A DNA stretch of 33,640 nucleotides from a virus, in IMG/VR virus record IMGVR_UViG_3300021594_000473, positions 1-33,640 of that record. One strand, given 5' to 3'. The translations under genes were made by a program, and so were the position numbers. Below the pieces are notes generated by a model, which had not been told where the DNA came from, made no database searches, and was given only the letters and a program-made list of their open reading frames with translations. This document shows positions 22,901 through 33,640 of the stretch, piece after piece; within the stretch, counting starts at the first letter, position 1, and each line of letters starts with the position of its first letter.

Positions 22901-23391
22901 TTTATCTTATATAAAAATTCATTTAAAAATAAAGCACTCAAGTTTAAAATAATGGTTCCATCCGAGTGCGAATCGGAATTGCTAGTGGAAAAAGTTAACT
23001 TATCATTTTTTCCGTTTAAGTTGCTTATTCCACTAAATCCCCTTATACATTCTTCGAAGCTATTATTGGTTTTGGACTTATATGTAATTATCTCACCATC
23101 AATTTGAATGATTCCATACTTATCTGGAAATCCTTCCGTAGATTTAACTAAAATAGAAGAATCAAATTGTGTAATATCACCAATTAAATTTGTAGATTGT
23201 GATATACTTTTAATATTATCAATTTTTGCATATAAATCAATATTATTAAGTATGTCCGATGGACCACCAGGTATCTCTAAAGATTTATAATATTGCGATA
23301 AAAACTCTGATACAAGAGGAAATTCCTCTGTAACGAATGATGGAAGTTGATTTTCAACAATTTCGCTGATATTAACTCTTGAATTTACCAT
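19882..23391 (-). CDS. Giant virion protein, N-terminal part, probable baseplate wedge gp7-type (1169 aa)
   Basis: Begins MVNSRVNISEIVENQLPSF, then EEFPLVSEFLSQYYKSLE and GGPSDILNNID, an N-terminus typical of the large cyanophage virion protein that follows gp6. Further conserved stretches are FLYKIKKQIAPGFE, FIKQVKDFYSSKGSDKSF and LFNALYGEKVTVLRPSDNL. The C-terminal third has glycine-rich repeats (DGGNDYNVINPPTLII, DPGFDYIETPTIDIIG, NGGYGYVKGDTKLQV). It follows gp6 with one base between, matching T4 gp7, a central baseplate wedge protein. The last 11 codons overlap the next giant ORF in another frame and read SPRFKFC, with no sign of a family C-terminus, so the reading frame may be broken here. 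Confidence 0.85.
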   Translation of the reverse strand: MVNSRVNISEIVENQLPSFVTEEFPLVSEFLSQYYKSLEIPGGPSDILNNIDLYAKIDNIKSISQSTNLIGDITQFDSSILVKSTEGFPDKYGIIQIDGEIITYKSKTNNSFEECIRGFSGISNLNGKNDKLTFSTSNSDSHSDGTIILNLSALFLNEFLYKIKKQIAPGFEGLELNENVNEKLFIKQVKDFYSSKGSDKSFSILFNALYGEKVTVLRPSDNLISPSVSKYRKTQQLIVECDNRNILNLVGNTVYQNKINSTNKSFATVLDVEEIKRGDKIYYKISLDSDYNRDINVSSGTISGKFTISPKTKVTSDIKTNSSFITVDSTVGFPNEGELLIKLSDGTPKLINYYDKNINQFLECSGVTFDIKIGTDVEDSNYCYGYDLNNNKIEFKITSVISDSVLLTPIPGYSKNDLVIIDNIGLSGNRPVHTSWLYNNAIYYDVKNISLVDSSNFSYSVELFEDSYIYVQDTLVLYDTKEREILLKVISLNNKKSFVVESQSGNIDLSEKYYLERKISYVNTGDSFIDQVTSNVTNVYYDFDQVDTYVVSNSIPSYSNLTLDIKKHSVSFSGNFDGEEIEIGTHPFLTGDAVYYIPKSPNNTLNIESGLYYVKRISSTKIKLSRSRSSIYANKFINLIGNITDSTIVLDKFYENSFAPYKLVKRIPELQKRDSLEFYETKPNQNIGVLINGVEILNYKSNDLVYYGEIESVDILDGGNDYNVINPPTLIITDKNDSQRTTEDFAKGYVGVAGSLSGIKLVDPGFDYIETPTIDIIGGGGKGAVVKAELSLFKHEELFKSDDSNNVNLSTNIITFSQDHKFRDFEKVVYRAFNQTPIGGLIDNSIYYIKTLSATSITIHNTELDSVSGINTVNITSYGTGKHSIESYSTKKKIQRFIIENNGKGYKNRLIESPSSGISTIANTVTIQNHGYETGEIIVYNASEIPVSGLSSASSYYVTKVDDDKFKLSVIGVGTTAANYYINRGDYINFSSVGSGIHYFNYPPIQAIVTGKIGVSTFNNQNFNAVISPIVTGSVTSIFISNGGNYYGSEEILNYNRQPLYRLENGKGAQLTPIISNGQIIGVNIQNSGSNYDDSPLIAVYSFSGSGAVLTPIVQNGSIVEVKVINGGYGYVKGDTKLQVLSLGGNCTLKFNSKKWTVNNVLSPRFKFC

Positions 23392-23392
23392 A

Positions 23393-25291
23393 TTATTTTA
23401 ATATTTGTGGTCCGTTTGGATAACTTGAAGTAGTTAGATAAGTACTTCCAGAGGAGTCTGCTCCAGAAGAGATGTCATCGGAAAGTATTGTTAATTTACT
23501 TCTATTAATATCTATCTGCAAATATAAATCTTGTAATCCGATAATATCATTTGATTTGGGGATGGCAGAAATCATAATTACAGGTTCCCCATCTTGAGTA
23601 ATTTCAGTTCCAGTTACAGAGATAGATTGTAAGAATATTTCACCCGTTTCATAATTTACTTTACCCACTTCATTGAAATAATTTTGAGATTCTCCATCAA
23701 ATACAAACAATTTTCCTTGTGTTGGATTATTTAAATCTGGAAAATCGGTCAAGTAAACATAATTCTCAAAACCTTCTACTTTAAATCCAGAAGATTTTAT
23801 ATTTTGTCCTTGAGGATTTTTTATATGAAATTCATTACCAAAACATATTTCGTAATTTCCAAATGCATTTATATTCACTCTAAGATCTCTTCTCATTGAG
23901 ACTTTAGTGATATTTGAAGTGATAGCAGAATTGCTATCATCAATCAATTTTAAGAATTTACTATATTTAAATCTTGCCCCATATCTATTAATCTCACTAG
24001 ATTTTGTGTATTCTAAAATATTATTGTATACGGAATTTAAAACTACATTTTCATTGGAAGCCAGATTCTTGTTGTAATAAATTGTAGTTTCATACTCTAC
24101 GTTTAGATACTTAAGATCCATAAACACAGGGACAATTCCTGCTACAGAATATTTTCTCAATTCTGATTTGATAAATTCTTTACTTGCAGAGGAAAGAAAG
24201 AATCCATTTGTAGGTTTAATTGCAATAAAAACCTTTCCATACTCTGGTGGTTCTAAAGTTTCTCCACCAAATACAGAAATTGATTCTGTTTCTGGATATA
24301 TTTTTGGAATTAGTGCTTCATAATCATTTGCAGTAACTGCTCTATTTTGACTTGAGTATATTTTTGGTGCGTATTTTTTGATATAACTTACAGATTCAAT
24401 TTGTTGTCCACCACTTGTTGGTCCATTGGAAGTAACCAAAGAAATTTGAGAATTGATTATACTACCATCATTTGCGACTAATCTTCCAGCATAAGTGAAG
24501 TTTGTTATTCCATTTGCAACTTCACCATTTGTTACTACATATGAAACTGTAACGTAATTTCCGTTAACAAGTTTTTTACCAAATAATCCATCACCAAAAA
24601 GCAATTCATATCGTTCATCTTCAATTTCTTGAATTAAGAATATTTTTGATGTTGAATCTATGTTTACAATACTATCAATATATTTGAATACTTTAGTATC
24701 GCTTGAAAGTGCATTATCTTTTACTGTTACTGATATAGTTGATGTGTCTATTCCAGGGTTATCTAAAATAAATCTTTGATAGTTCGTTGAATCTACGGTG
24801 AAATTTTGGGTAATTAAAGTTCCTTCGTAAATTGTAATATCATCAAACGATGCTATTCCATCTTTAACTGGAACGGTGACATCTTCTGGAATTGAAAATG
24901 AATTACTTTCTCTACCAAAAGTTGTTAAAGTTGTAAAACAAATTCCCTTTTTTAAAGTTACTGTCAATGGTCTAACATCTAAACCAGATAAATCTACAAA
25001 AAATGAAACTTTTGTTTTTGAAGCAGTTTTTGATCTAGGAACGTAACCAATATTTCTTGCGAGAGAAACGACATTTTCTCTGAGAGTAGCACCATCAAGA
25101 AACAATTCATTGCTAATCATATTAGCATTATATGAATTGATATATGTGTTATACGCTAATACATCAATTAATACAGAAAGACTGGATCCTTCAAAGTCGT
25201 AATCTGTAAAATTGGAATTTGTTTTTAGATAATCTTTTATCGAAGTCTTTATATCTTCGAAATCTAAATTCGTAAAATTAACTAATGCCAT
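23393..25291 (-). CDS. 6: Baseplate wedge protein gp6
   Basis: A 632-residue protein beginning MALVNFTNLDFEDIKTSIKD with FEGSSLSVLIDVLAYNTYIN and LDGATLRENVVSLARNIGYV soon after. These are hallmark stretches of T4-like gp6, the baseplate J-type protein whose dimers form the inner ring of the baseplate wedge. AVTANDYEALIPKIYPETES in the middle is another gp6/J-family signature. Length is close to T4 gp6. The start ATG overlaps the gp25 stop (TAATG), and the next gene begins one base after its stop, so gp25-gp6-gp7 are tightly coupled, as in T4-like cyanophages. Confidence 0.95.
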   Translation of the reverse strand: MALVNFTNLDFEDIKTSIKDYLKTNSNFTDYDFEGSSLSVLIDVLAYNTYINSYNANMISNELFLDGATLRENVVSLARNIGYVPRSKTASKTKVSFFVDLSGLDVRPLTVTLKKGICFTTLTTFGRESNSFSIPEDVTVPVKDGIASFDDITIYEGTLITQNFTVDSTNYQRFILDNPGIDTSTISVTVKDNALSSDTKVFKYIDSIVNIDSTSKIFLIQEIEDERYELLFGDGLFGKKLVNGNYVTVSYVVTNGEVANGITNFTYAGRLVANDGSIINSQISLVTSNGPTSGGQQIESVSYIKKYAPKIYSSQNRAVTANDYEALIPKIYPETESISVFGGETLEPPEYGKVFIAIKPTNGFFLSSASKEFIKSELRKYSVAGIVPVFMDLKYLNVEYETTIYYNKNLASNENVVLNSVYNNILEYTKSSEINRYGARFKYSKFLKLIDDSNSAITSNITKVSMRRDLRVNINAFGNYEICFGNEFHIKNPQGQNIKSSGFKVEGFENYVYLTDFPDLNNPTQGKLFVFDGESQNYFNEVGKVNYETGEIFLQSISVTGTEITQDGEPVIMISAIPKSNDIIGLQDLYLQIDINRSKLTILSDDISSGADSSGSTYLTTSSYPNGPQILK

Positions 25292-25692
25292 TATCGTGTT
25301 GGAGTGAGTGCGAATGATAACTGTTGAGTTGGCACATCAATTCCTATAATTTTATATTTTATTACTATATCGAATTGATTTTCATCGTAATTTGGATTTA
25401 CATCTAATTCTAAAAGAGTTACTCTAGGCTCAAAGGTTGTGATTACATATTCAATTTCATTTCTTATGAAAATAGAAGTGTTTCTATCGAGGTTTTCAAA
25501 AAGAAGCCTTGATACTTCAGAACCTAATTGACTATTAAAAAACCTTTCTCCTTTTTGAGTAAGAACTAAATTGCGAATAGAACGTGCTATCGCCCTTTCA
25601 TTGGTAATTGTCAGTATGTCACGAGTCAGTGGATTACTCTGTAACGTTAAACTGACATCTTTAAAAGGTCTACTAACACGTTCTAAAGGCAT
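25291..25692 (-). CDS. 25: Baseplate wedge protein gp25
   Basis: A 133-residue protein of the gp25/lysozyme-like baseplate family. It shows SIRNLVLTQKGERFFNSQLG (about residues 39-58) and the diagnostic EPR motif at 88-90 within TTFEPRVTLLELDV; in contractile tails the EPR segment holds the wedge and sheath together. It heads the visible late operon: a late-type promoter box lies about 30 bases before the ATG and the stop overlaps the gp6 start. Length matches T4 gp25 (about 132 residues). Confidence 0.96.
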   Translation of the reverse strand: MPLERVSRPFKDVSLTLQSNPLTRDILTITNERAIARSIRNLVLTQKGERFFNSQLGSEVSRLLFENLDRNTSIFIRNEIEYVITTFEPRVTLLELDVNPNYDENQFDIVIKYKIIGIDVPTQQLSFALTPTR

Positions 25693-27373: not shown

Positions 27374-27561
27374 TGAGAAGACTCTAAGTTTAGGTTCTTA
27401 TTTGATGTGAGTTCCACAAATGTGAGGTCCTCCACAGTATAATCGGTCTTCATTAAACCTACCATATTCTTCAATGTATTCCAAGTAATTTCAAACTCTT
27501 CTTCCTTCAAAGAATGGAAAAGGCAGCGTTCCTTGGCGTATATGTGGTAAATTTTTTCCAT
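27370..27561 (-). CDS. Conserved short cyanophage protein (63 aa)
   Basis: MEKIYHIYAKERCLFHSLKE, then FEITWNTLKNMVGLMKTDYT and VEDLTFVEL. The combination 'KIYHIYAK..C..H.L.E.EF..TW..L.N.VGL..TDY...DL.YE' matches a small family I recall from T4-like cyanophages; function unknown. A TATATATAA stretch at about 27583-27593 could serve as its promoter. The last codons overlap the -35 of the downstream promoter. Confidence 0.75.
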   Translation of the reverse strand: MEKIYHIYAKERCLFHSLKEEEFEITWNTLKNMVGLMKTDYTVEDLTFVELTSNKNLNLESSH

Positions 27562-27890
27562 TATTAATTAATTGACAACCGCTTTATATATAAGCACTCA
27601 AATAAACCCGAGTGGTAATAACACTACCTTCGGATACCTTATTAACCATCCTGCAAGAACTACCTTCCAGAAATTCCAGTAAGGGGTTTGGGGGCGATTT
27701 TTTCTACGGGAAATTTTTTTATAATACACGGAATACACTCGGCAATTTGGCGGAGTTCTTGTTGAATAATTCTCGGTCTCTTGGGGACCTTTGTAGGTTA
27801 CATAGGACCCATTTTTTAATAAGGGGGCGCACGGCGGGCGGCATAACGATAACGTTATATCGTATAACTGCCCTGCCGAAAGAACGAACA
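27562..27890. other. Gene-free junction between the small-gene block and the phage core
   Basis: About 330 bases with no convincing gene on either strand. It holds TATATATAA (about 27583-27593, probable promoter of the 63-residue gene), homopolymer runs of T near 27700 and 27715, a doubled GAAGGTAGT (minus strand, near 27627 and 27663), and an imperfect palindrome around 27845-27868 centred on AACGTT. It marks the change from cyanophage-type core genes to the promoter/stem-loop block. A 116-codon plus-strand frame crosses it, but I do not consider it a gene. Confidence 0.5.
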
Positions 27891-27892
27891 GA

Positions 27893-27918
27893 GGGGGACG
27901 GTCCTGAGACTGTCCCCC
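27893..27918 (-). terminator. Hairpin terminator after the 58-aa gene
   Basis: Perfect 7-base stem GGGGGAC / GTCCCCC with a 12-base loop, starting 8 bases after the stop at 27926. It is followed on the minus strand by TCTGTTCGTTCTTTC, a T-rich but broken tail. Confidence 0.65.
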
Positions 27919-27925
27919 ATAAGGA

Positions 27926-28102
27926 TCAATCCGCCATCGGATCGGTTACGTCGCTGCCGTAAGTCTCAGAGAACTGAGCGGCGAGCAGAGTAGCGGTGTG
28001 ACCCACAGGATCGGTGATCCGATTGAACTTGCTGCCGTCGTTGCGATAAGCGACCCACAGGATCTGGCGATCGGTCAGGCGGGAGGCGGGAGAGAAGCGC
28101 AT
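27926..28102 (-). CDS. Hypothetical 58-aa protein
   Basis: MRFSPASRLTDRQILWVAYR, then NDGSKFNRITDPVGHTATLL and AAQFSETYGSDVTDPMAD. No domain recognised; mixed charge, one tryptophan, probably alpha-helical. It is preceded by a TAGAAT promoter of the block type and followed by a strong hairpin. Its start region overlaps the 3' end of the upstream 100-codon frame by 28 bases. Supported by promoter, terminator and codon use typical of this block, but not by recognised homologues. Confidence 0.6.
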   Translation of the reverse strand: MRFSPASRLTDRQILWVAYRNDGSKFNRITDPVGHTATLLAAQFSETYGSDVTDPMAD

Positions 28103-28377
28103 CGGTCGTTTGCGGTTGACTCTGGAATTCTACAGGATGGGGGGCGCGGATGCAACCCGTGGCGCTTGATCAGTCCGTCCGCTGCCATCCGCTTGAGGGT
28201 GATAGCGAGGGCAGTCCGTGCCTCATTGGGCATCCCCAGAGCGGCGTTAATGTCGGTAGGGCGCATCCCGTCCTGATTGGCGCAACCGCTGCCATCATCC
28301 ATCGGCAGGATCGAAAGGATCGCCCACTGATAGGTGGCACCGAAAGCGTCAGAGCGGGTGAAGGTGGTGGAGAACAT
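28075..28377 (-). CDS. Putative winged-helix/HTH protein (100 aa)
   Basis: MFSTTFTRSDAFGATYQWAI... is followed by RPTDINAALGMPNEARTALA and ITLKRMAADGLIKRHG (about residues 39-74), which reads as a recognition helix plus wing typical of small winged-helix DNA-binding proteins. If so, it could be an early transcription regulator. The last 25 or so residues (HPRPPSCRIPEST...) are coded by DNA that also contains the promoter and start of the next gene, so the natural C-terminus may have been lost. The start follows a TACAAT box by about 50 bases. The assignment rests on pattern only. Confidence 0.55.
   Translation of the reverse strand: MFSTTFTRSDAFGATYQWAILSILPMDDGSGCANQDGMRPTDINAALGMPNEARTALAITLKRMAADGLIKRHGLHPRPPSCRIPESTANDRCASLPPPA
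28115..28135 (-). promoter_or_regulatory. Block-type promoter of the 58-aa gene (TAGAAT)
   Basis: Minus strand TGTAGAATTCCAGAGTCAAC: extended -10 (TG.TAGAAT) followed by a leader resembling the block consensus. It lies within the 3' end of the upstream coding frame. No -35 seen. Confidence 0.5.
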
Positions 28378-28428
28378 GGTTCTTCAGGTTTGGTGGTGGG
28401 GGTCGGTTTCCCTTCCCCCGTTGATCGT

Positions 28429-28437
28429 ATTGTAGAG
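28429..28437 (-). promoter_or_regulatory. -10 promoter of the winged-helix gene (TACAAT)
   Basis: Minus strand CTCTACAATACGATCAACGG; TACAAT at 28434-28429, directly behind the terminator of the upstream gene and about 52 bases before the ATG. No -35 recognised. Confidence 0.45.
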
Positions 28438-28442
28438 CATCA

Positions 28443-28463
28443 GGGGGAGGATGCAACCCCCCC
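28443..28463 (-). terminator. G/C hairpin after the 71-aa gene
   Basis: Minus strand GGGGGGTTGCATCCTCCCCC: at least a 5-base G/C stem, 11 bases after the stop at 28474 and just upstream of the next -10 box. No T-run, so it may act as an intrinsic terminator only weakly. Confidence 0.5.
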
Positions 28464-28473
28464 GATGGTCGGT

Positions 28474-28689
28474 TCAGCAACCGAACACCAGATCAGCGAT
28501 GGCGTCGGTGATCTCAGTGCAGCGGCACCAGCGAACGGCATTGCCGCTGGCAGGCACCATCCAGACCATGCACTCCTCACCCCAGATCTTAGCGATCGCG
28601 TAAGCGTGGTTCATATCGGTTGCCCACTCGCAACCGTGAGGATCGAAGGAAGTCCAGGCGGTGGGTTGAACTGCGAAACCGTAGGTCAT
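28474..28689 (-). CDS. Hypothetical 71-aa Cys/Trp-rich protein
   Basis: MTYGFAVQPTAWTSFDPHGC EWATDMNHAY..., then AKIWGEECMVWMVPASGNAV and RWCRCTEITDAIADLVFGC. It has five cysteines and four tryptophans in 71 residues, and looks like a compact beta-alpha protein; the Cys do not form a standard zinc-finger spacing. I chose the ATG at 28689 because it follows the block promoter by the usual distance; a longer frame would run through that promoter. Terminator and promoter at both ends make it a single-gene unit. Function unknown. Confidence 0.6.
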   Translation of the reverse strand: MTYGFAVQPTAWTSFDPHGCEWATDMNHAYAIAKIWGEECMVWMVPASGNAVRWCRCTEITDAIADLVFGC

Positions 28690-28703
28690 GAGGTTCAGGT
28701 GGC

Positions 28704-28724
28704 GAACTGAGATCAGTATAGAGT
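28704..28724 (-). promoter_or_regulatory. Consensus block promoter, copy 1
   Basis: Contains the 17-mer GAACTGAGATCAGTATA (plus strand); minus strand TATACTGATCTCAGTTC, with TATACT as -10. It lies 15 bases before the ATG. The leader also holds GTTC-N7-GAAC. Confidence 0.65.
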
Positions 28725-28731
28725 CAGGGGT

Positions 28732-28751
28732 GGGGGTCGGTGATGACCCCC
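28732..28751 (-). terminator. Hairpin terminator after the 63-aa gene
   Basis: GGGGGTC / GACCCCC, 7-base perfect stem with a 6-base loop, 11 bases after the stop at 28763 and immediately before promoter copy 1. Confidence 0.65.
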
Positions 28752-28762
28752 AGTGCCAGAGA

Positions 28763-28954
28763 TCAGACTGTCCAGGTGATCTGCTCAGGGGCGAAGCGGG
28801 AGAGTACCTCCTGCAGATAATCCAGGGCAACGGGGCGGCGGGCAACGGGCAGACCCTTTTCCCATCCTGTGGCGACCCATCCTGTGGCGTAGCGGTCAAA
28901 GGTGACACGCTGCCCAGCGATCATAATCCAGGTTGCGGTGGTGAGGTTAGGCAT
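28763..28954 (-). CDS. Hypothetical 63-aa protein
   Basis: MPNLTTATWIMIAGQRVTFD, then RYATGWVATGWEKGLPVARR and PVALDYLQEVLSRFAPEQIT, ending WTV. The first half is beta-rich (WIMIAGQRVTF..YATGWVATG), the second a helix. No family recognised. Start follows a TAGAAT promoter by about 24 bases; a strong hairpin follows the stop, so it forms a single- or two-gene unit with the 38-aa gene upstream. Confidence 0.6.
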   Translation of the reverse strand: MPNLTTATWIMIAGQRVTFDRYATGWVATGWEKGLPVARRPVALDYLQEVLSRFAPEQITWTV

Positions 28955-28966
28955 CGGTTCAGGTGT

Positions 28967-28986
28967 GAACTGAGAGAATTCTACAG
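28967..28986 (-). promoter_or_regulatory. Variant block promoter (TAGAAT)
   Basis: Minus strand TGTAGAATTCTCTCAGTTCA: extended -10 TG.TAGAAT followed by the consensus CTCAGTTCA leader. The -10 lies at 28983-28978, just after the stop of the 38-aa gene. The leader contains GTTCA-CACC-TGAAC. Confidence 0.6.
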
Positions 28987-28988
28987 GG

Positions 28989-29105
28989 TCAGCGGGCGAT
29001 CAGATCGGCGGCAGTGTGCAATACGTCTGCTGTCACACGGCGGGCAGGTTCCATCGGTTGCCAGAGCATCAGCAGCAGAGCGATTCCAGCAGCGACCTTT
29101 AGCAT
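28989..29105 (-). CDS. Short membrane-anchored protein (38 aa)
   Basis: MLKVAAGIALLLMLWQPMEP followed by ARRVTADVLHTAADLIAR. A hydrophobic segment (residues 4-15) at the N-terminus and a basic, amphipathic C-terminal helix; a short single-pass membrane protein or signal-anchored peptide is likely. The layout 'hydrophobic N-terminus - QP - ARxxTADxLxxxAxxI' is one I recall from very short cyanophage proteins, function unknown. No promoter of its own is visible; it is probably co-transcribed with the 54-aa gene upstream past a hairpin. Confidence 0.6.
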   Translation of the reverse strand: MLKVAAGIALLLMLWQPMEPARRVTADVLHTAADLIAR

Positions 29106-29127
29106 GGTAGGATTGGGGGTTGGAGAG

Positions 29128-29149
29128 GGGGAGGGGTTTCCCCCCTCCC
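29128..29149 (-). terminator. G/C hairpin between the 54-aa and 38-aa genes
   Basis: Minus strand GGGAGGGGGGAAACCCCTCC: a G-rich arm, AAA loop and C-rich arm with two unpaired G. It lies 8 bases after the stop at 29157. No promoter follows, so it may attenuate rather than end transcription into the 38-aa gene. Confidence 0.5.
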
Positions 29150-29156
29150 TTAGGGG

Positions 29157-29321
29157 TCAGGCGTGACCGTCAGTGTAGTCTCCGATGATCATGCCGTTCT
29201 GGCGAACCTGAGCGTACCCGTATTCTTCAGAAAGGGACAGGCACAGATCCCAGGCACGGTCGGCGTCGGTGGTGGTGTTCTCCCAGGGAGCGGAGGGGCA
29301 GATCACGTCAAGGCGGTTCAT
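29157..29321 (-). CDS. Hypothetical 54-aa protein
   Basis: MNRLDVICPSAPWENTTTDA, then DRAWDLCLSLSEEYGYAQVR and QNGMIIGDYTDGHA. The arrangement - a helix followed by YGYAQVRQNGMIIGDYT, probably two strands - suggests a small alpha/beta protein. No family recognised. The ATG lies 13 bases downstream of the conserved promoter block (copy 2), as for its neighbours. Confidence 0.6.
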   Translation of the reverse strand: MNRLDVICPSAPWENTTTDADRAWDLCLSLSEEYGYAQVRQNGMIIGDYTDGHA

Positions 29322-29333
29322 TGGTGGTTGTCT

Positions 29334-29354
29334 GAACTGAGATCAGTATAGGGG
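29334..29354 (-). promoter_or_regulatory. Consensus block promoter, copy 2
   Basis: Minus strand CCCCTATACTGATCTCAGTT; carries the full 17-mer. -10 TATACT; no -35. It follows the terminator at 29361-29379. Confidence 0.7.
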
Positions 29355-29360
29355 TTGGAG

Positions 29361-29379
29361 AGGGGGCATTGCGCCCCCT
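29361..29379 (-). terminator. Hairpin terminator after the 63-aa gene at 29393
   Basis: AGGGGGC / GCCCCCT, 7-base stem with loop GCAAT (minus strand), 13 bases after the stop. Stem and loop are almost identical to the hairpin at 31740-31758. Confidence 0.7.
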
Positions 29380-29392
29380 GGTGGACAGTGCC

Positions 29393-29584
29393 TCAGTTGG
29401 CATAAAGGGAGTTGAAATCCTCCACAAACTCCAGTGCCTCATCACCGCTCATGCGGGAGATCATTTCACGGGCGACCGTCTCCCAGGAGTAGTGATCCGC
29501 CAGATCACAGATTGCCTCACGGGCATCGGAAGCGTAGCGGTGAGCAGCGGTGATCTGAGCGTAGGTCATTTCAAGGCGGGACAT
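29393..29584 (-). CDS. Hypothetical 63-aa helical protein
   Basis: MSRLEMTYAQITAAHRYASD, then AREAICDLADHYSWETVARE and MISRMSGDEALEFVEDFNSL, ending YAN. Almost entirely helical, acidic, with regularly spaced Ala/Leu/Ile; it could be a small four-helix protein or dimer. No family recognised. It forms a complete single-gene cassette: consensus promoter 12 bases upstream of the ATG, and a strong hairpin 13 bases downstream of the stop. Confidence 0.6.
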   Translation of the reverse strand: MSRLEMTYAQITAAHRYASDAREAICDLADHYSWETVAREMISRMSGDEALEFVEDFNSLYAN

Positions 29585-29596
29585 GGTGGGTCGGTT

Positions 29597-29617
29597 GAAC
29601 TGAGATCAGTATAGGGG
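29597..29617 (-). promoter_or_regulatory. Consensus block promoter, copy 3
   Basis: Contains the full 17-mer (29597-29613); -10 TATACT lies directly next to the hairpin that ends the upstream gene. It lies 12 bases before the ATG at 29584, giving a very short leader without a Shine-Dalgarno sequence. Confidence 0.7.
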
Positions 29618-29640
29618 GTGGCACCCCTCAGAATGCCACC
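29617..29640 (-). terminator. Hairpin overlapping the stop of the 79-aa gene
   Basis: GGTGGCA / TGCCACC, 7-base stem with a 10-base loop. The upstream arm includes the last codons of the gene (stop at 29630-29628) and the other arm abuts promoter copy 3. The alternative inner stem GGGGTGCCACCCC is also possible. Confidence 0.55.
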
Positions 29641-29867
29641 AGTTGATCCACTTCCCACTGTGGCACAGTTGCAACCTCACCGCCGCAGTTCTCTGCCAAC
29701 CAGCGGTTAATGTGCTTTGAGGTTGTGACGCTGTAGAACTGCTCGGTGCGGATCCAACCCTTACCAGGCACCAGGGCGGCAACAGGGGTGGAGTAGGAGA
29801 ACAGAACCTCAGTCCCATCAGCGAGGGAGATCTGGGTGCTGGTGGTGGTGACTTGAGTGACTTTCAT
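29628..29867 (-). CDS. Short phage protein with SYxTPVA...TSKHINRWL motif (79 aa)
   Basis: MKVTQVTTTSTQISLADGTE, then VLFSYSTPVAALVPGKGWIR, TEQFYSVTTSKHINRWLAEN and CGGEVATVPQWEVDQLVAF. The pattern 'FSYSTPVAA..PG.GW.RTE..YS.TTSKHINRWL' matches a small family I recall as widespread in phages (possibly DUF8033). Its function is not known to me. Beta-rich N-terminus, then a conserved S/T-rich turn and helix. It has a consensus promoter 13 bases upstream and its stop codon lies inside a terminator hairpin. Confidence 0.7.
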   Translation of the reverse strand: MKVTQVTTTSTQISLADGTEVLFSYSTPVAALVPGKGWIRTEQFYSVTTSKHINRWLAENCGGEVATVPQWEVDQLVAF

Positions 29868-29879
29868 GGCGGGTTGCCT

Positions 29880-29900
29880 GAACTGAGATCAGTATAGGGG
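29880..29900 (-). promoter_or_regulatory. Consensus block promoter, copy 4
   Basis: Full 17-mer at 29880-29896 followed by GGGG; minus strand CCCCTATACTGATCTCAGTT. It lies 13 bases before the ATG at 29867. No -35. Confidence 0.7.
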
Positions 29901-29905
29901 TTGGA

Positions 29906-29925
29906 GGGGGTCTGGTGTGACCCCC
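29906..29925 (-). terminator. Hairpin terminator after the 63-aa gene at 29935
   Basis: GGGGGTC / GACCCCC (minus strand GGGGGTCACACCAGACCCCC), 7-base stem with a 6-base loop, 9 bases after the stop and 6 bases before promoter copy 4. The stem is identical to that at 28732-28751. Confidence 0.7.
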
Positions 29926-29934
29926 TGTGACAGA

Positions 29935-30126
29935 TCAGCGACTGGACAGGATTCGGAGCGCCCCCTCAATATCCTCAATGATCAGGCGGGCACCGACAGG
30001 ATCGAAGTTCGGGCGATCGTGAGTGATCTCCTGCTCAGCGAGCAGATCACGCCAGAACTTGAGTTCGCGGTCAAGGGCACGGACTCCTGCGCTTGCCTGG
30101 CAGGTGGTGAGTTCGAAAGTTGCCAT
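29935..30126 (-). CDS. Hypothetical 63-aa helical protein
   Basis: MATFELTTCQASAGVRALDR, then ELKFWRDLLAEQEITHDRPN and FDPVGARLIIEDIEGALRIL, ending SSR. Two helices separated by a loop (HDRPNFDPVG); no recognised family. Only the ATG at 30126 fits; a longer frame would cross the promoter. Complete cassette with promoter copy 5 upstream and a hairpin downstream. Confidence 0.6.
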   Translation of the reverse strand: MATFELTTCQASAGVRALDRELKFWRDLLAEQEITHDRPNFDPVGARLIIEDIEGALRILSSR

Positions 30127-30139
30127 CGGGTTCAGGTGT

Positions 30140-30160
30140 GAACTGAGATCAGTATAGGGG
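30140..30160 (-). promoter_or_regulatory. Consensus block promoter, copy 5
   Basis: Full 17-mer at 30140-30156, then TAGGGG; -10 TATACT. The leader contains the perfect inverted repeat GTTCA-CACC-TGAAC between the -10 and the ATG. Confidence 0.7.
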
Positions 30161-30166
30161 CAAAGG

Positions 30167-30184
30167 GGAGGGGTTGATCCCTCC
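30167..30184 (-). terminator. Hairpin terminator after the 61-aa gene
   Basis: GGAGGG / CCCTCC, 6-base stem and 6-base loop, about 22 bases after the stop at 30206 and 7 bases before promoter copy 5. Confidence 0.6.
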
Positions 30185-30205
30185 GCTGTGCCGCTTGTCA
30201 GAGTG

Positions 30206-30391
30206 TCACCCGAGTGACCCGTTCTGATCCAGGATGCCGTAGGCAACCTCAAAACCAGTAGGGGTGGGGTAGATTCCCAGATAGGCGCGACCGATACTGA
30301 TTGCCGCGGCCTCATCCCTCACGCGAGCACGGGGATCGATGGCAACGTAGAGGAACTGATCCAGGAAGCGGGGAGTGCGAATCAGGGGCAT
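30206..30391 (-). CDS. Hypothetical 61-aa protein
   Basis: MPLIRTPRFLDQFLYVAIDP, then RARVRDEAAAISIGRAYLGI and YPTPTGFEVAYGILDQNGSLG. Beta-rich ends around a short helix; no family recognised. Its ATG comes one base after the stop of the 46-aa gene (TGAGATG), so it is the second gene of a two-gene unit with no promoter of its own. Confidence 0.6.
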   Translation of the reverse strand: MPLIRTPRFLDQFLYVAIDPRARVRDEAAAISIGRAYLGIYPTPTGFEVAYGILDQNGSLG

Positions 30392-30392
30392 C

Positions 30393-30533
30393 TCAGTCTA
30401 CCAGGTGAGCGGGGCAACCGCAGGAGCGGTACAATTCTACCATACGCTCTGCCTCCATCAGGGAGGGGAACGTTTGAGTGCGCCACTCGCAAGCATTGTA
30501 GGGCGACTGATAACGGATCGTGAAACCGCGCAT
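30393..30533 (-). CDS. Hypothetical 46-aa Cys-containing protein
   Basis: MRGFTIRYQSPYNACEWRTQ, then TFPSLMEAERMVELYRSCGC and PAHLVD. The SCGCPAH near the C-terminus plus one earlier Cys and a His could bind metal, but three Cys and one His at this spacing are not a known motif to me. The layout 'beta strand - W - helix AERMVELYRSCG - PA' is like small phage proteins that handle host factors, though I cannot assign one. It is followed directly by the 61-aa gene. Confidence 0.55.
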   Translation of the reverse strand: MRGFTIRYQSPYNACEWRTQTFPSLMEAERMVELYRSCGCPAHLVD

Positions 30534-30551
30534 TGTGGGAGGTTCAGGGTT

Positions 30552-30570
30552 GAACTGGTGTCAGTCTAAA
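30552..30570 (-). promoter_or_regulatory. Variant block promoter (TAGACT)
   Basis: Minus strand TTTAGACTGACACCAGTTCA resembles the consensus TATACTGATCTCAGTTCA; the -10 overlaps the stop codon of the 43-aa gene upstream. The leader contains GTTCA-ACCC-TGAAC. Confidence 0.5.
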
Positions 30571-30697
30571 TGCTGACGGATTGAGTGTAGGATGCGGGAG
30601 TCGGTTTGGCATCTGTCCCCCTGGGAACGTGATCCAATACAATGCCAACAGCAATGCCAATCAGAACGAACTGTAGGAAGTTCTCAATTCGGCGCAT
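30566..30697 (-). CDS. Short membrane protein (43 aa)
   Basis: MRRIENFLQFVLIGIAVGIV then LDHVPRGTDAKPTPASYTQS and VSI. A basic N-terminus followed by a clear transmembrane segment (about residues 7-20) and a polar tail: a typical single-pass membrane peptide. Small membrane proteins of this kind are frequent in early regions of phages, where some block host or rival phage functions; nothing here identifies the target. Its stop lies inside the promoter of the 46-aa gene, so spacing is extremely tight. Confidence 0.6.
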   Translation of the reverse strand: MRRIENFLQFVLIGIAVGIVLDHVPRGTDAKPTPASYTQSVSI

Positions 30698-30711
30698 CAG
30701 GGATCAGTGGG

Positions 30712-30730
30712 GAACGGAATCAGTATAGCA
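30712..30730 (-). promoter_or_regulatory. Variant block promoter (TGCTATACT)
   Basis: Minus strand TGCTATACTGATTCCGTTCC: extended -10 TGCTATACT, with GAT and GTTC positions matching the consensus. It directly follows the hairpin at 30736-30753. Confidence 0.55.
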
Positions 30731-30735
30731 CGGAA

Positions 30736-30753
30736 GGGGGGCAGGTGCCCCCC
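30736..30753 (-). terminator. Hairpin terminator after the KTSC-like gene
   Basis: GGGGGGCA / TGCCCCCC (minus strand GGGGGGCACCTGCCCCCC): near-perfect palindrome of 18 bases, 7 bases after the stop at 30761, followed by TTCCGT. Confidence 0.65.
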
Positions 30754-30760
30754 GACTCTA

Positions 30761-30985
30761 TCAGGCGACAGCGACCAGTTGATCGTTGCGGATAGCAGTG
30801 TTCACAAAGCGACCCACCGAACCCTCAGGATCGGCAATCACGGCGCTCAGTTGGGCAACGAACTGCTCAACATCTTGCACACCGTAGGTATAATCACGAC
30901 CACCGTTGAAGGTGATAGTTACTTGACCATTCTCCACGTCAGAGATGTTCTCAATGGCGCTGGAGGTAAAGTTGAACTGAGACAT
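30761..30985 (-). CDS. KTSC-like domain protein (74 aa)
   Basis: MSQFNFTSSAIENISDVENG, then QVTITFNGGRDYTYGVQDVE, QFVAQLSAVIADPEGSVGRF and VNTAIRNDQLVAVA. The pattern 'SSAIENI.Y...L.V.F.GG..Y.Y..V....V..L..A...GS.GRFVNTAIR' fits the KTSC family (related to the C-terminal domain of lysyl-tRNA synthetase), which is common in phages and whose role is unclear. I chose this ATG because a longer frame starts inside the promoter region. The leader is unusually long (about 60 bases) and AT-rich near the ATG. Promoter TATTCT upstream, strong hairpin downstream. Confidence 0.7.
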   Translation of the reverse strand: MSQFNFTSSAIENISDVENGQVTITFNGGRDYTYGVQDVEQFVAQLSAVIADPEGSVGRFVNTAIRNDQLVAVA

Positions 30986-31046
30986 AATGAATTCAAAAAG
31001 TAAAGGGTTGAGTGAAGTGTTTTGAGCGGGATGCTTCACCCCCGCT

Positions 31047-31065
31047 GATGAGATCAGAATAGGGC
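31047..31065 (-). promoter_or_regulatory. Variant block promoter (TATTCT)
   Basis: Minus strand GCCCTATTCTGATCTCATCA: consensus with TATTCT for TATACT and CATCA for AGTTC. About 60 bases before the KTSC-like ATG, so this unit has the longest leader among the clear promoters. Confidence 0.5.
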
Positions 31066-31121
31066 ACCAGGGGCAGAGAGTCAAGGGGTAGTGGACACTC
31101 TGCCAACTGGCACCCTTAGGG

Positions 31122-31598
31122 TCACTTCCAGAGACCTTCAGAGATCAGGCGATTGACCAGAGACTGTGCCAGAGATCCACAATGGGGGCAGGCGGTAGCG
31201 TATTTGATCTCAGATCGCAGGGCGTACTTTTCGGTAGAACGGAATCCGCCGAACTTGTAACGATAGACTGCGCTTACGGTTTTCATCAGTTGGCGCTTTT
31301 CAATGTCACCTTCAACCACTTTATAAACAGGGATGAAGTAACGGAAATCACCGATTGCGCGGGAACGGTTCAACTTATCCACAATCAGTTTGGCACTCTT
31401 AGCACCAAAGAAAGGGGTCAGTTCAACTTGCAACCAAGCGTGAAATGGTGCCAATTCATCACTGTGAGCACCAGAAACTTTCTGCTGATTATGCAGTTGA
31501 GCGATAGCATCATTCAGGGTCTGGAAAGACTGAGTAACGTTGCTCTGCAGTTCTTCAAGAGCAGCGGTCAGGGACTGAATGCTGTTAGCGTTGGACAT
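31122..31598 (-). CDS. Hypothetical 158-aa protein with coiled-coil start and CxxC
   Basis: The largest gene of the small-gene block. Residues 5-43 (SIQSLTAALEELQSNVTQSF...TLNDAIAQLHNQQ) form a likely coiled coil. The middle (PFHAWLQVELTPFF, GAKSAKLIVDKLNRSRAIGD) and the basic part (YRYKFGGFRSTEKYALRSEI) follow, and near the C-terminus is a single CPHC. No family recognised; two Cys plus nearby His could form part of a metal site if the protein is a dimer. I rejected a start at 31748 because it would read through the terminator/promoter gap. The start MSNANS follows a poly-C/G-rich leader. Confidence 0.6.
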   Translation of the reverse strand: MSNANSIQSLTAALEELQSNVTQSFQTLNDAIAQLHNQQKVSGAHSDELAPFHAWLQVELTPFFGAKSAKLIVDKLNRSRAIGDFRYFIPVYKVVEGDIEKRQLMKTVSAVYRYKFGGFRSTEKYALRSEIKYATACPHCGSLAQSLVNRLISEGLWK

Positions 31599-31650
31599 TG
31601 GAATGTCGGTGTTGGTGGTGGGGTCGGGTGGGGTTGTTTCCCCCCCGATG

Positions 31651-31679
31651 AACATAGAATGACAGACCAGGGCGACCAA
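31651..31679 (-). promoter_or_regulatory. Possible promoter of the 158-aa gene
   Basis: Minus strand TTGGTC (31679-31674), 17-base spacer, TATGTT (31656-31651). Only partial matches to consensus, but correct spacing, and located between the terminator at 31732-31759 and the gene. Confidence 0.35.
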
Positions 31680-31731
31680 TGCAACCAGGTGTGTGACACT
31701 ACCCGAACTGGCATAAGGTCGCTTGACAGAC

Positions 31732-31759
31732 AAAAAAAGAGGGGGCATTGTGCCCCCTT
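31732..31759 (-). terminator. Strong rho-independent terminator after the 56-aa gene
   Basis: Minus strand AGGGGGCACAATGCCCCCTC followed by TTTTTTT: 6-7 base stem, short loop and a run of seven T. It is the only textbook intrinsic terminator with a long T-run in the block, 7 bases after the stop at 31764, and its stem is a near copy of that at 29361-29379. Confidence 0.85.
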
Positions 31760-31763
31760 GTGA

Positions 31764-31934
31764 TCAGTAACCAGCAAACTCTAGGAGTTCATCCAGCGGG
31801 ATTCTTTGCCCCTCTAAGTTAGAGAAATAGGCATTGAAATCCTCTAGGAGATTGTGAGAAGTGGCAAAGCGAATTGCATCGAAATACTTAACGTAACCGT
31901 TACGATCCGCCTTGCGTTCGATGTTGCTAACCAT
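31764..31934 (-). CDS. Hypothetical 56-aa protein
   Basis: MVSNIERKADRNGYVKYFDA, then IRFATSHNLLEDFNAYFSNL and EGQRIPLDELLEFAGY. Helical, aromatic-rich, mixed charge; no family recognised. ATG overlaps the stop of the 46-aa gene (TGATG), so it is translated as the second gene of a unit that ends at the strong terminator. Confidence 0.6.
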   Translation of the reverse strand: MVSNIERKADRNGYVKYFDAIRFATSHNLLEDFNAYFSNLEGQRIPLDELLEFAGY

Positions 31935-32074
31935 CAGAATTCAATCTCCTCAGAGGTGGGTTCATTCAGATCAACGCTATCCACAGAATCAGAACAGATC
32001 GCATCGAGAATCGAAAGAATCTCCTGCCCATTGTTCCCTTGGCGAAGCATCGAAAGAAGAACGTCTTTAGACAT
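31934..32074 (-). CDS. Hypothetical 46-aa acidic protein
   Basis: MSKDVLLSMLRQGNNGQEIL, then SILDAICSDSVDSVDLNEPT and SEEIEF. One or two helices with an acidic tail (SEEIEF); acidic small proteins of this type occur often in phage early regions, sometimes as DNA mimics, but nothing here proves that. 5' leader preceded by TACAAT at 32134-32129. Overlaps the next ATG (TGATG). Confidence 0.6.
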   Translation of the reverse strand: MSKDVLLSMLRQGNNGQEILSILDAICSDSVDSVDLNEPTSEEIEF

Positions 32075-32128
32075 GGTTTCATTGTAAGGTTGAGGTTTGG
32101 TGGCAGTCTTTAGGGCGCTGCCGTTCCC

Positions 32129-32137
32129 ATTGTATCA
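32129..32137 (-). promoter_or_regulatory. -10 promoter (TACAAT) in the end of the 52-aa gene
   Basis: Minus strand GGTCTGATACAATGGGAACG: extended -10 TG.TACAAT adjoining the stop at 32137-32135. About 55 bases before the 46-aa ATG. No -35. Confidence 0.45.
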
Positions 32138-32293
32138 GACCCTAGCGAGATCTGATTCCCATTTCACCGACTTCAGAATCTCTTTGTATTCTGCGGGTGA
32201 AGGGGAGACTGATGCCTGCATGATAGCACGGCGGCACTGCTCAGCGATCTCTTCGATGCTCACAGCGCGATCAGTAGCGGGATTGTAACGCAT
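32135..32293 (-). CDS. Hypothetical 52-aa protein
   Basis: MRYNPATDRAVSIEEIAEQC, then RRAIMQASVSPSPAEYKEIL and KSVKWESDLARV. Helical; SIEEIAEQCRRAI followed by SPSPAEYKEIL suggests two helices joined by a Pro turn. No family recognised. Complete unit with TATATT promoter upstream. Confidence 0.6.
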   Translation of the reverse strand: MRYNPATDRAVSIEEIAEQCRRAIMQASVSPSPAEYKEILKSVKWESDLARV

Positions 32294-32338
32294 TGGAGGT
32301 TAGCGTTGGGTTTGGTGGGGATTCCTCCCCATGCACTC

Positions 32339-32348
32339 AATATAGCGC
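32339..32348 (-). promoter_or_regulatory. -10 promoter (TGCGCTATATT) of the 52-aa gene
   Basis: Minus strand AATGCGCTATATTGAGTGCA: TATATT at 32344-32339. It lies 45 bases before the ATG; the leader also contains GGGGAGGAATCCCC, a small palindrome near the start. Confidence 0.45.
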
Positions 32349-32373
32349 ATTCTGGGGAGGAGTCTAGGGGGGT

Positions 32374-32397
32374 TGTGCCAGATTCTGAACTGGCACA
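32374..32397 (-). terminator. Hairpin terminator after the 40-aa gene
   Basis: TGTGCCAG / CTGGCACA, perfect 8-base stem with an 8-base loop, 6 bases after the stop at 32404; the longest uninterrupted stem among these hairpins. No T-run. Confidence 0.65.
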
Positions 32398-32403
32398 GGT
32401 GAT

Positions 32404-32526
32404 TCAGTTTTTATCCTCAATCACGGTAACGATCTCCTGGGAGTTCTGGAGGTATTCAGTCTGAATGATTCCAGGAGCGATCTCAGTCTGTCCGACGATC
32501 ATAGCGAAAGCAAGGAGTTCAAGCAT
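32404..32526 (-). CDS. Hypothetical 40-aa protein
   Basis: MLELLAFAMIVGQTEIAPGI, then IQTEYLQNSQEIVTVIEDKN. A hydrophobic first 11 residues (LLAFAMIV) could be a membrane anchor or signal peptide, too short to be certain. No family recognised. Starts inside the upstream gene (8-base overlap) and is the last of a four-gene overlapping unit; the hairpin at 32374-32397 follows. Confidence 0.5.
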   Translation of the reverse strand: MLELLAFAMIVGQTEIAPGIIQTEYLQNSQEIVTVIEDKN

Positions 32527-32665
32527 CGTTAAGCATTGCAACGAGTTTGTCGTAAAGAGCATCCACATTGGTGCCCACCTGTTCGCTCACTTCATCCCAA
32601 TCATCGTGAAAGCGAATGAGATCAAGAATTGCAGCGATTTCATCAGATGTCAGAGTCATCATCAT
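32519..32665 (-). CDS. Hypothetical 48-aa protein, triple-ATG start
   Basis: MMMTLTSDEIAAILDLIRFH, then DDWDEVSEQVGTNVDALYDK and LVAMLNDA. Three consecutive ATG (32665, 32662, 32659) leave the exact start open; all give a small acidic helical protein. 'LTSDEIAAILDLIRFHDDWDEVSEQVG' looks like a conserved short phage protein, but I cannot name a family. It overlaps the 34-aa gene at its start and the 40-aa gene at its end. Confidence 0.6.
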   Translation of the reverse strand: MMMTLTSDEIAAILDLIRFHDDWDEVSEQVGTNVDALYDKLVAMLNDA

Positions 32666-32747
32666 CTGTGGGGAAGTAATCAGGGAAAGTGGGGAGGTCT
32701 CCCTCCCACACTATAGCACCGAGATCAAAGAGATCGGAGAATGACAT
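32643..32747 (-). CDS. Very short acidic protein (34 aa)
   Basis: MSFSDLFDLGAIVWEGDLPT FPDYFPT..., ending DDDSDI. The start overlaps the stop of the 51-aa gene upstream (TAATG) and the frame runs into the 48-aa gene (about 23-base overlap). Aromatic/acidic composition (WEGDLPTFPDYFPTDDD) recalls very short cyanophage proteins, but that is a memory-based impression. The DNA also contains a -10 box (TATAGT), so this stretch could instead be a plain leader. Confidence 0.5.
   Translation of the reverse strand: MSFSDLFDLGAIVWEGDLPTFPDYFPTDDDDSDI
32710..32718 (-). promoter_or_regulatory. -10 promoter (TGCTATAGT) inside the 34-aa frame
   Basis: Minus strand GGTGCTATAGTGTGGGAGGG: extended -10 TGCTATAGT at 32715-32710, followed by the palindrome GGGAGGGAGACCTCCC. 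It would give the 48-aa and 40-aa genes their own transcript. Confidence 0.4.
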
Positions 32748-32902
32748 TAAAAGTCGTTGGATGAGTCAAGGGGCAGACCCTCAGCAAGGTCATCATACTC
32801 TGGATCGTAGAATGCTTCAACCTCCCGTAGGGTTTCTTCATCATCGTAGAAACCGAAGGAGATTGCTTCTTCGATCTGGGGGTCTTCAATGAAGTGGTTC
32901 AT
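32747..32902 (-). CDS. Hypothetical 51-aa acidic protein
   Basis: MNHFIEDPQIEEAISFGFYD, then DEETLREVEAFYDPEYDDLA and EGLPLDSSNDF. Strongly acidic (many Asp/Glu, few Lys/Arg), Tyr/Phe-containing. Such small acidic proteins may act as protein-binding or DNA-mimic factors, but there is no direct evidence here. It heads the four-gene overlapping unit; a CATACT promoter lies 17 bases upstream. Confidence 0.6.
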   Translation of the reverse strand: MNHFIEDPQIEEAISFGFYDDEETLREVEAFYDPEYDDLAEGLPLDSSNDF

Positions 32903-32918
32903 GGTGGTGAGTTCCGTT

Positions 32919-32940
32919 GAACAATGTCAGTATGGCAGGG
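32919..32940 (-). promoter_or_regulatory. Variant block promoter (CATACT)
   Basis: Minus strand TGCCATACTGACATTGTTCA: matches TATACTGATCTCAGTTCA at most positions. 17 bases before the ATG at 32902 and directly after the hairpin at 32944-32963. Confidence 0.55.
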
Positions 32941-32943
32941 GAT

Positions 32944-32963
32944 GGGGGGCAGTGCAACCCCCC
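32944..32963 (-). terminator. Hairpin terminator after the 60-aa gene
   Basis: GGGGGG / CCCCCC with loop TTGCACTG (minus strand), 13 bases after the stop at 32977, just upstream of the CATACT promoter. The loop shares TTGCA with the hairpin at 28443-28463. Confidence 0.6.
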
Positions 32964-32976
32964 CTTGTGCCACTTG

Positions 32977-33159
32977 TCAGTCTGTCACATCCTCCAGCAG
33001 TTCAGGGTAGTATTCTTCACACTCAGTGATCAATTCTTCATCAGAATACTTACCATAACCCTCATCCAGATAATCATAACACAGTTGTGTCATTGTCTTA
33101 AGATCCATGTCATCCAACATTTGCTGAATGAGAGCATCTTGAAGTTCAGTACGGTTCAT
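32977..33159 (-). CDS. Conserved short cyanophage-type protein (60 aa)
   Basis: MNRTELQDALIQQMLDDMDL, then KTMTQLCYDYLDEGYGKYSD and EELITECEEYYPELLEDVTD. The pattern 'R.ELQDALIQQMLDDMD..T..QL.YD.L...Y..YS.EELI.E...YYPELLED' is one I recall from many T4-like cyanophages. Function unknown; all-helical, acidic. It lies 2 bases after the stop of the 58-aa gene and is the last gene of a coupled unit. Confidence 0.72.
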   Translation of the reverse strand: MNRTELQDALIQQMLDDMDLKTMTQLCYDYLDEGYGKYSDEELITECEEYYPELLEDVTD

Positions 33160-33161
33160 GA

Positions 33162-33338
33162 TCAGAAACGAATGATAGGGTGATCAACATCGAGGACATC
33201 ACATTCCTCAGTTGCAAACACAAAATCTACATCGTATTGAATGTGCTGATCCTCCCATTTATTGTAGAGGCAAACATCTTGATTCAGTTGTTCCTCGTTC
33301 AGTTGTTGCAACTGTTGCAGAAGTTCTTTGTACTTCAT
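33162..33338 (-). CDS. Hypothetical 58-aa protein, paralogue of its upstream neighbour
   Basis: MKYKELLQQLQQLNEEQLNQ, then DVCLYNKWEDQHIQYDVDFV and FATEECDVLDVDHPIIRF. It shares a plan with the 66-aa product upstream: YK(E/D)LL..LQ, a QL(N/D) segment, a DV.xY stretch and a C-terminal DVLD.DHP..xF. Similar short proteins occur in cyanophages; function unknown to me. ATG overlaps the upstream stop (TGATG). Confidence 0.7.
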   Translation of the reverse strand: MKYKELLQQLQQLNEEQLNQDVCLYNKWEDQHIQYDVDFVFATEECDVLDVDHPIIRF

Positions 33339-33538
33339 CAGAAGGAGAGGTAGGGATGATCAGAATCTAACACGTCGTTGGTGTCAGATGCGGTGAGCAG
33401 TGTTGTGATGGGATAATACTCATCAGCATCAGGATCATACACTGTAGGGGTGCAGTCCAACTGCTCTGCTGTCATGGATTGTAACATGACCAGCAGATCC
33501 TTATAGGTTTGGCAACCGTAGGGTGCGTTAGGTGTCAT
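33338..33538 (-). CDS. Hypothetical 66-aa protein of the same small family
   Basis: MTPNAPYGCQTYKDLLVMLQ, then SMTAEQLDCTPTVYDPDADE, YYPITTLLTASDTNDVLDSD and HPYLSF. The sequence YKDLL..L..M..EQLD.T.TVYDPDADEYYP...DVLD.DHPYL is a pattern I recall from short cyanophage proteins. It is the longer of two adjacent paralogues. Its ATG is 1 base before the stop of the upstream partial gene ends (ATGA-type contact), so it is translationally coupled. Confidence 0.7.
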   Translation of the reverse strand: MTPNAPYGCQTYKDLLVMLQSMTAEQLDCTPTVYDPDADEYYPITTLLTASDTNDVLDSDHPYLSF

Positions 33539-33539
33539 T

Positions 33540-33640
33540 TCAGAATGATACGATAATCAATGGAATTGATGCACCAACCTGTAGCACAGGTAATCTCTTC
33601 GATGAGATCATCCTCATCATCTGCCTCCCAGATTTGCCCT
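33540..33640 (-). CDS. Partial short protein (C-terminal 33 codons, cut by window edge)
   Basis: The C-terminus of a gene that starts beyond base 33640. The visible part reads ...GQIWEADDEDDLIEEITCAT then GWCINSIDYRIILK. The combination of an acidic helix (EADDEDDLIEEI), CATGWC and a short beta end resembles C-termini of small cyanophage proteins of unknown function. Stop TGA at 33542-33540 sits 1 base before the ATG of the next gene. Confidence 0.55.
   Translation of the reverse strand, partial: GKSGRQMMRMISSKRLPVLQVGASIPLIIVSF

Follow-up and report, generated by a model that had tools for sequence, protein, structure and literature searches.

How are the many very small genes of a T4-like cyanophage transcribed, and what allows them to be exchanged between phages? 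The question is raised by IMG/VR virus record IMGVR_UViG_3300021594_000473, a 33.6-kb viral fragment that includes T4-type baseplate genes and was analysed over its whole length of 33,640 nucleotides (the window). Positions 27926-33640 hold a cluster of about 20 minus-strand genes of about 38-158 amino acids. Composite cassettes separate these tiny genes, and the elements of the cassette come in this order: a dyad box, GTGACAGTTnnnnAACTGGCACA; a GC hairpin within a fixed spacer of about 30 nt; a -10 hexamer (TATACT or TACAAT); and a leader consisting of CTCAGTTCA, a further 10-17 nucleotides and the ATG. We consider it probable that this is a gene-exchange locus built from per-gene cassette units, in which an activator box, a nested terminator and a core that acts as the swap joint are combined.

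From the window alone, an original prediction had described a dense, repeated series of promoter-like cassettes with its own consensus, in the order stop codon, hairpin, -10 box, leader and ATG. This order is present at all seven places that it cited, when read on the minus strand. An identical 18-mer, CTATACTGATCTCAGTTC, occurs at five of the seven, always on the gene strand, compared with 0.09 expected from shuffles at up to three mismatches, a density far above chance. The other two (30711-30728 and 32918-32935) are variant cores. Four cassettes had not been listed before: 28967-28984 and 30552-30569, both without a hairpin, 28415-28463, which has TACAAT, and 32339-32392, which has a box and TATATT. 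The window cluster comprises six close-match cassettes plus variants.

All of these elements lie on the minus strand. The 18-mer is found at 28704-28721, upstream of gene 28474-28689, with hairpin GGGGGTCATCACCGACCCCC (28732-28751) in the spacer and a box with one mismatch, CAGTCTGATCTCTGGCAC (28753-28770), that overlaps the end of gene 28763-28954. It recurs at 29334-29351, upstream of gene 29157-29321 (hairpin AGGGGGCGCAATGCCCCCT, 29361-29379); at 29597-29614, upstream of gene 29393-29584 (hairpin GGTGGCATTCTGAGGGGTGCCACC, 29617-29640, within which the stop codon of the upstream gene lies); at 29880-29897, upstream of gene 29628-29867 (hairpin AGGGGGTCACACCAGACCCCCT, 29905-29926; box CAGTCGCTGATCTGTCAC, two mismatches, 29927-29944); and at 30140-30157, upstream of gene 29935-30126 (hairpin GGAGGGATCAACCCCTCC, 30167-30184; box CACTCTGACAAGCGGCAC, three mismatches, 30188-30205, with the -10 at the expected distance). 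The hairpin-less variants are GTAGAATTCTCTCAGTTC at 28967-28984, upstream of gene 28763-28954, and TTAGACTGACACCAGTTC at 30552-30569, upstream of gene 30393-30533. Variant core CTATACTGATTCCGTTCC (30711-30728) precedes gene 30566-30697 and has hairpin GGGGGGCACCTGCCCCCC (30736-30753), and variant core CCATACTGACATTGTTCA (32918-32935) precedes gene 32747-32902, with hairpin GGGGGGGTTGCACTGCCCCCC (32944-32964) and a box with two mismatches, CAGACTGACAAGTGGCAC (32967-32984). Upstream of gene 28075-28377, hairpin GGGGGGGTTGCATCCTCCCCC (28443-28463) is followed by CTACAAT (28415-28435). Gene 32135-32293 is preceded by box CAGTTCAGAATCTGGCAC (32375-32392) and TATATT with the fixed spacing (the pattern matches at 32339-32380), without the 18-mer.

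The expectation of a shared consensus held when the intergenic regions were compared with those of related cyanophages, which recovered the common core, the box and their fixed spacing. The exact 18-mer occurs in at least 119 viral contigs, and its reversed form in none. Exact matches in AT-rich coding sequence of six loci (L015, L021, L024, L050, L086 and L087) seem to be chance occurrences in a single repeated gene. With up to three mismatches, 357 core sites were found in 1.09 Mb of viral loci, 336 of them followed after 7-20 nt by an ATG; reversed DNA yielded none. A search of 84,980 bacterial and archaeal genomes returned only two matches to the 18-mer, in unrelated clostridial metagenome-assembled genomes, which is consistent with chance. 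A host origin of the promoter is not supported, as the 18-mer has no cyanobacterial match. Among 311 non-redundant cassettes the -10 is TATACT in 204 and TACAAT in 66, with CTCAGTTCA common to both classes. The leader element TGANCTNAGNTCA was also considered as a dyad operator, and rejected because the TACAAT class lacks the left half and keeps CTCAGTTCA. Each phage uses a dialect of its own (CCCTACAATAGCCACATCAA in S-CAM9, GTAGGATAACTTCAGTTC in S-PM2, GTAGACTAACAGCATCAAC in the contig G002), and leaders are more similar within a genome than between genomes, with the observed difference reached by none of 1000 permutations.

The dyad box lies at a fixed -37 to -39 from the core in the aligned upstream regions, both with and without a hairpin. 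Because one gene family inflated the hairpin-less class, the upstream contexts were clustered to 137 independent ones, of which 56 contain the box at seven or more of its nine positions (nine in the reversed control), 40 of them at -37 to -39. An independent test used 92 box sites selected without the core 18-mer in 16 cyanophage regions; a -10 hexamer follows 36-44 nt downstream at 62 of these sites (at 38-40 nt in 49), where 3.2 were expected. Box and -10 composites in a combined scan of 17 regions numbered 84 in the orientation of the genes, 11 in the opposite orientation and one in the control. The pattern TGGCACA-N28-31-TANNNT occurs 29 times forward in ACG-2014f, never in reverse and never in the control, and positions 1-50000 of T4 contain none. 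About 25 box/-10 composites of ACG-2014f (NC_047713) fall within 27.6-55 kb in one orientation, reaching far upstream of the helicase gene, and the box there marks a region of small genes more extensive than the cluster in the window. The box/-10 pair is also present in the cultured phages S-PM2 and S-SRM01.

A -35 element (at least five of six positions) was detected in only 21 of the 137 contexts. In a minority of cassettes TTGACa stands 16-18 nt upstream in place of the box, and among the independent contexts a -35 accompanies 2 of 41 cassettes with a box versus 19 of 96 without (p = 0.036), a tendency to mutual exclusion. The box is disfavoured as an RNA stem, since A:G pairing prevails in the dyad (56% A opposite 82% G). 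It is best read as a putative activator site, centred some 54 bp ahead of the predicted start. In a separate observation, a conserved box, TTGAC and -10-like hexamer (TGGCACAATCCAGTTGAC...) occur together at a similar genome position in S-SRM01 (W01, 157820), ACG-2014d (W05, 156879) and S-RIM8 (W06, 159220).

Hairpins are found in 44% of the independent contexts versus 8% in shuffles, and taken singly the window hairpins exceed composition-matched shuffles to a modest degree only (z -0.3 to -3.0). In relatives, a U-tract follows 7 of 34 spacer hairpins, and some have a textbook terminator within the spacer (e.g., TGGCACA AGACCCGCCACACAAGGCGGGTTTTTTGC TATAAT). This suggests that the spacer hairpin is a terminator nested inside the promoter. 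The sole clear U-tract terminator of the block in the window, AGGGGGCACAATGCCCCCT CTTTTTTTG at 31731-31758 (minus strand), follows gene 31764-31934.

If these cassettes are units of exchange, the genes on either side should be found with other partners. Pairs of cassettes drawn from the 311 share only the upstream gene in 189 cases, only the downstream gene in 304 and both genes in 33. In recent swaps, upstream-linked identity stops at +9 to +29 in 44 of 53 pairs, and downstream-linked identity begins at -20 to +17 in 59 of 74. The swap joint therefore lies in the -10/leader core, where the one identity ends and the other starts; judged by these alignments, the upstream gene retains the hairpin, and the leader goes with the downstream gene. 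Genes of the window take part. On either side of the cassette at 29334-29351, upstream gene 29393-29584 recurs with other partners at 86-91% identity and downstream gene 29157-29321 at 74-87%, and gene 29628-29867 recurs at 93% identity behind a different upstream neighbour. Alignment ends are about threefold enriched at cassettes over a uniform distribution. Single-linkage protein families were set aside for the adjacency counts, as family 0 (208 members) chains unlike proteins.

The mechanism that we propose would make the block a hyperplastic locus for gene exchange in a T4-like cyanophage. Every small gene would form a separate transcription unit, flanked by a composite cassette of about 70-90 bp. 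A putative dimeric activator would bind the box and recruit host RNA polymerase to the -10 without a -35, presumably early in infection. The 29-31 nt between box and -10 would house the hairpin, which would end or protect the transcript of the upstream gene, so that terminator and promoter would occupy the same DNA. The near-identical stretch from the -10 to CTCAGTTCA would act as the swap joint, at which the upstream gene retains its hairpin and the incoming gene its leader. Whether this amounts to a phage-specific promoter class, defined by the activator box, the fixed distance of about 30 bp to a -10 without -35, a spacer terminator for the preceding gene and a core that doubles as exchange joint, and replacing the missing MotA/AsiA-type control in T4-like cyanophages, we regard as an evenly balanced question.

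Several results weigh against the exchange-locus interpretation. Only some 40% of the independent contexts contain a strong box, and many cassettes have neither a box nor a -35. Among the canonical cassettes of the window, none of the hairpins checked has a U-tract. The original prediction raised the question whether genes are gained or lost exactly between cassettes. Joints do fall inside the cassette, for genes of the window too, a position that fits exchange by homologous recombination, but breaks are found at 82% of cassette borders versus 74% of neighbouring borders at which no cassette was recognised, a control that degenerate cassettes may contaminate. Gene-border modularity may thus explain much of the swapping, and the cassette is a usual joint and only possibly the cause. 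Moreover, joints are not placeable inside the invariant core, and promoter selection together with illegitimate exchange may yield the same pattern. The corresponding alternative is that recombination of any kind occurs, that products joined at gene borders survive, and that the cassette is conserved as the phage's preferred promoter, which each gene needs. The dialect of each phage and the similarity of leaders within genomes would be expected under such shared regulation. We nevertheless consider this account rather unlikely, as recent swaps split the cassette within its core instead of carrying the whole cassette with one gene.

A more distant alternative concerns the core itself, which might be mainly a translation-start element, with dyad and hairpin as structures of mRNA 3' ends and no promoter between them. 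The nearly fixed distance to the ATG fits this idea, as does the similar placement of the SAS and ESAS elements in mycobacteriophages of cluster K (PMC3203893), and the consensus contains no Shine-Dalgarno-like sequence. Yet the spacing between box and -10 hexamer is fixed also at sites that lack the leader element, and both the tendency of box and -35 towards mutual exclusion and the preference for A:G in the dyad speak against it, making this explanation improbable. It could also be objected that short repeats led metagenome assembly to create chimeras that look like swaps, given that the loci are mostly metagenome contigs and the repeats measure 18-26 bp. However, 44 of 132 swap junctions are present in at least two loci, both junctions are replicated in 13 of 127 pairs, and identical arrays recur among contigs of different IMG/VR datasets (e.g., L019, L023 and L032). 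The cultured phages S-PM2 and S-CAM9 carry the same cassette architecture, and the complete genome of ACG-2014f carries box/-10 composites. Assembly chimerism is consequently very unlikely.

The exchange-locus interpretation is accompanied by a conserved genomic location. In the window, the cluster lies upstream of two baseplate wedge genes on the minus strand, g25 (25291-25692) and g6 (23393-25291), which are conserved landmarks 3' of it. In 10 of 10 long contigs the cluster is likewise upstream of g6, by roughly 3-15 kb and on the same strand. The cluster is a single locus in these contigs. All 11 loci checked, the window among them, sit immediately before g25-g6 within a GC-rich island, and the same holds for S-PM2. 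GC content in the window is 49-60% in the small-gene block versus 26-40% in the structural genes. The cluster coincides with a local GC maximum in the complete S-PM2 genome and in S-CAM9 as well, and the jump in GC seen in the window therefore does not stem from faulty assembly. Across the window, ten contigs (G001-G010), S-PM2 and S-CAM9, the island has about 50-60% GC within genomes of about 27-45%. Dividing the two GC regimes of the window is an intergenic region (27561-27925) with inverted repeats, such as GGGGGACGGTCCTGAGACTGTCCCCC at about 27893-27918.

A PHROGs scan of 20 small genes of the block matched a minority, every match being of unknown function, and a Pfam search of ten gave no match above the cut-off. 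The role in host takeover that the original prediction suggested for these genes gains no support from the PHROGs matches. The gene at 28989-29105 (minus strand) encodes a 38-amino-acid peptide whose N-terminal half is hydrophobic (MLKVAAGIALLLMLW...); its family occurs at many loci and sits immediately upstream of a hairpin-less cassette. The possibility that cassettes encode shared C-terminal tails was rejected, the tail being a mark of one family of 38-amino-acid genes. In the GC island of S-PM2, a gene annotated as an anti-restriction protein follows a cassette-like leader. Several open reading frames that follow cassettes at about 21.5-25 kb of S-PM2 (NC_006820; L138/L125) are unannotated, among them one whose start lies near 22097. 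For these islands, gene calling is incomplete.

T4-type phages reportedly possess comparable units, the Promoter-early Stem-Loop (PeSL) elements, attributed to Arbiol et al. in 2010 and Comeau et al. in 2014 (cited in PMC4503421 and PMC3950731). Both systems pair an intergenic stem-loop with a promoter among small genes of a T4-like hyperplastic region, and both are tied to gene shuffling. The T4 early promoter, with its -35 (TTTAC/TTGAC), was not found here, where a dyad box lies about 30 nt from the -10. The stem-loop is situated between box and -10, in contrast to T4, where a stem-loop was seen upstream of the -35. The earlier assignment to PeSLs consequently stands for the stem-loop/promoter cassettes and core-joined swaps, and fails for the promoter type and hairpin position. 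On sequence grounds the cassette would function like a PeSL and is built differently; it is not classed as one because its promoter portion, when tested, proved to be of another type than that of T4.

Other viruses offer more distant parallels. The SAS/ESAS of cluster K mycobacteriophages comprise a short conserved element immediately before the ATG of non-structural genes, often with a conserved inverted repeat ahead of it whose consensus varies among subclusters (PMC3203893). Unlike the cassette, which has a -10 hexamer at a fixed distance from a dyad with a hairpin between them, SAS has a Shine-Dalgarno core and a proposed role in translation (PMC3203893); the leader consensus here shows no AGGAG 3-7 nt before the ATG, which lies 10-17 nt past the core. 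In the haloarchaeal tailed virus HGTV-1, motifs combining a TATA box and an inverted repeat precede most open reading frames of one genome arm and have been likened to PeSLs and gene shuffling (PMC3950731). Promoter and host are archaeal, and the likeness is one of description. Halovirus HF2, also with an archaeal host, has promoter-bearing intergenic repeats that were tested there with a reporter gene (PMC8707807). A full-text literature search returned no relevant match to the core sequence, and among the papers listed in a search that included the box sequence none contains it; subscription papers may hold an earlier description.

These comparisons have implications for how cyanomyoviruses control their genes. 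They lack the T4 regulators alt, mod, motA and asiA, and their early and middle transcription control has been described as unclear (PMC2984593). The putative middle promoter of Syn9 and P-SSM4 is reported to be absent from S-PM2 (PMC2984593), in which the dyad box is common. PeSL-like shuffling had been judged unlikely in S-PM2 on account of its sparse stem-loops, that at 11369-11391 being one of the few reported (PMC4503421). A composite of box, hairpin, T-tract and TATAAT at 11362-11405 coincides with this stem-loop. Composites occur at 8588, 9868 and 11362 in the region treated in that study, at 5091 just upstream, and elsewhere at 17045-24274. The judgement deserves revisiting, because box/-10 composites are found both in the region discussed and beyond it. 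The box/-10 pair provides a concrete, testable promoter rule for cyanomyoviruses, and the g25-proximal island is a place to seek exchangeable small cyanophage genes. If the proposed interpretation is true, regulation and gene shuffling would rely on the same DNA.

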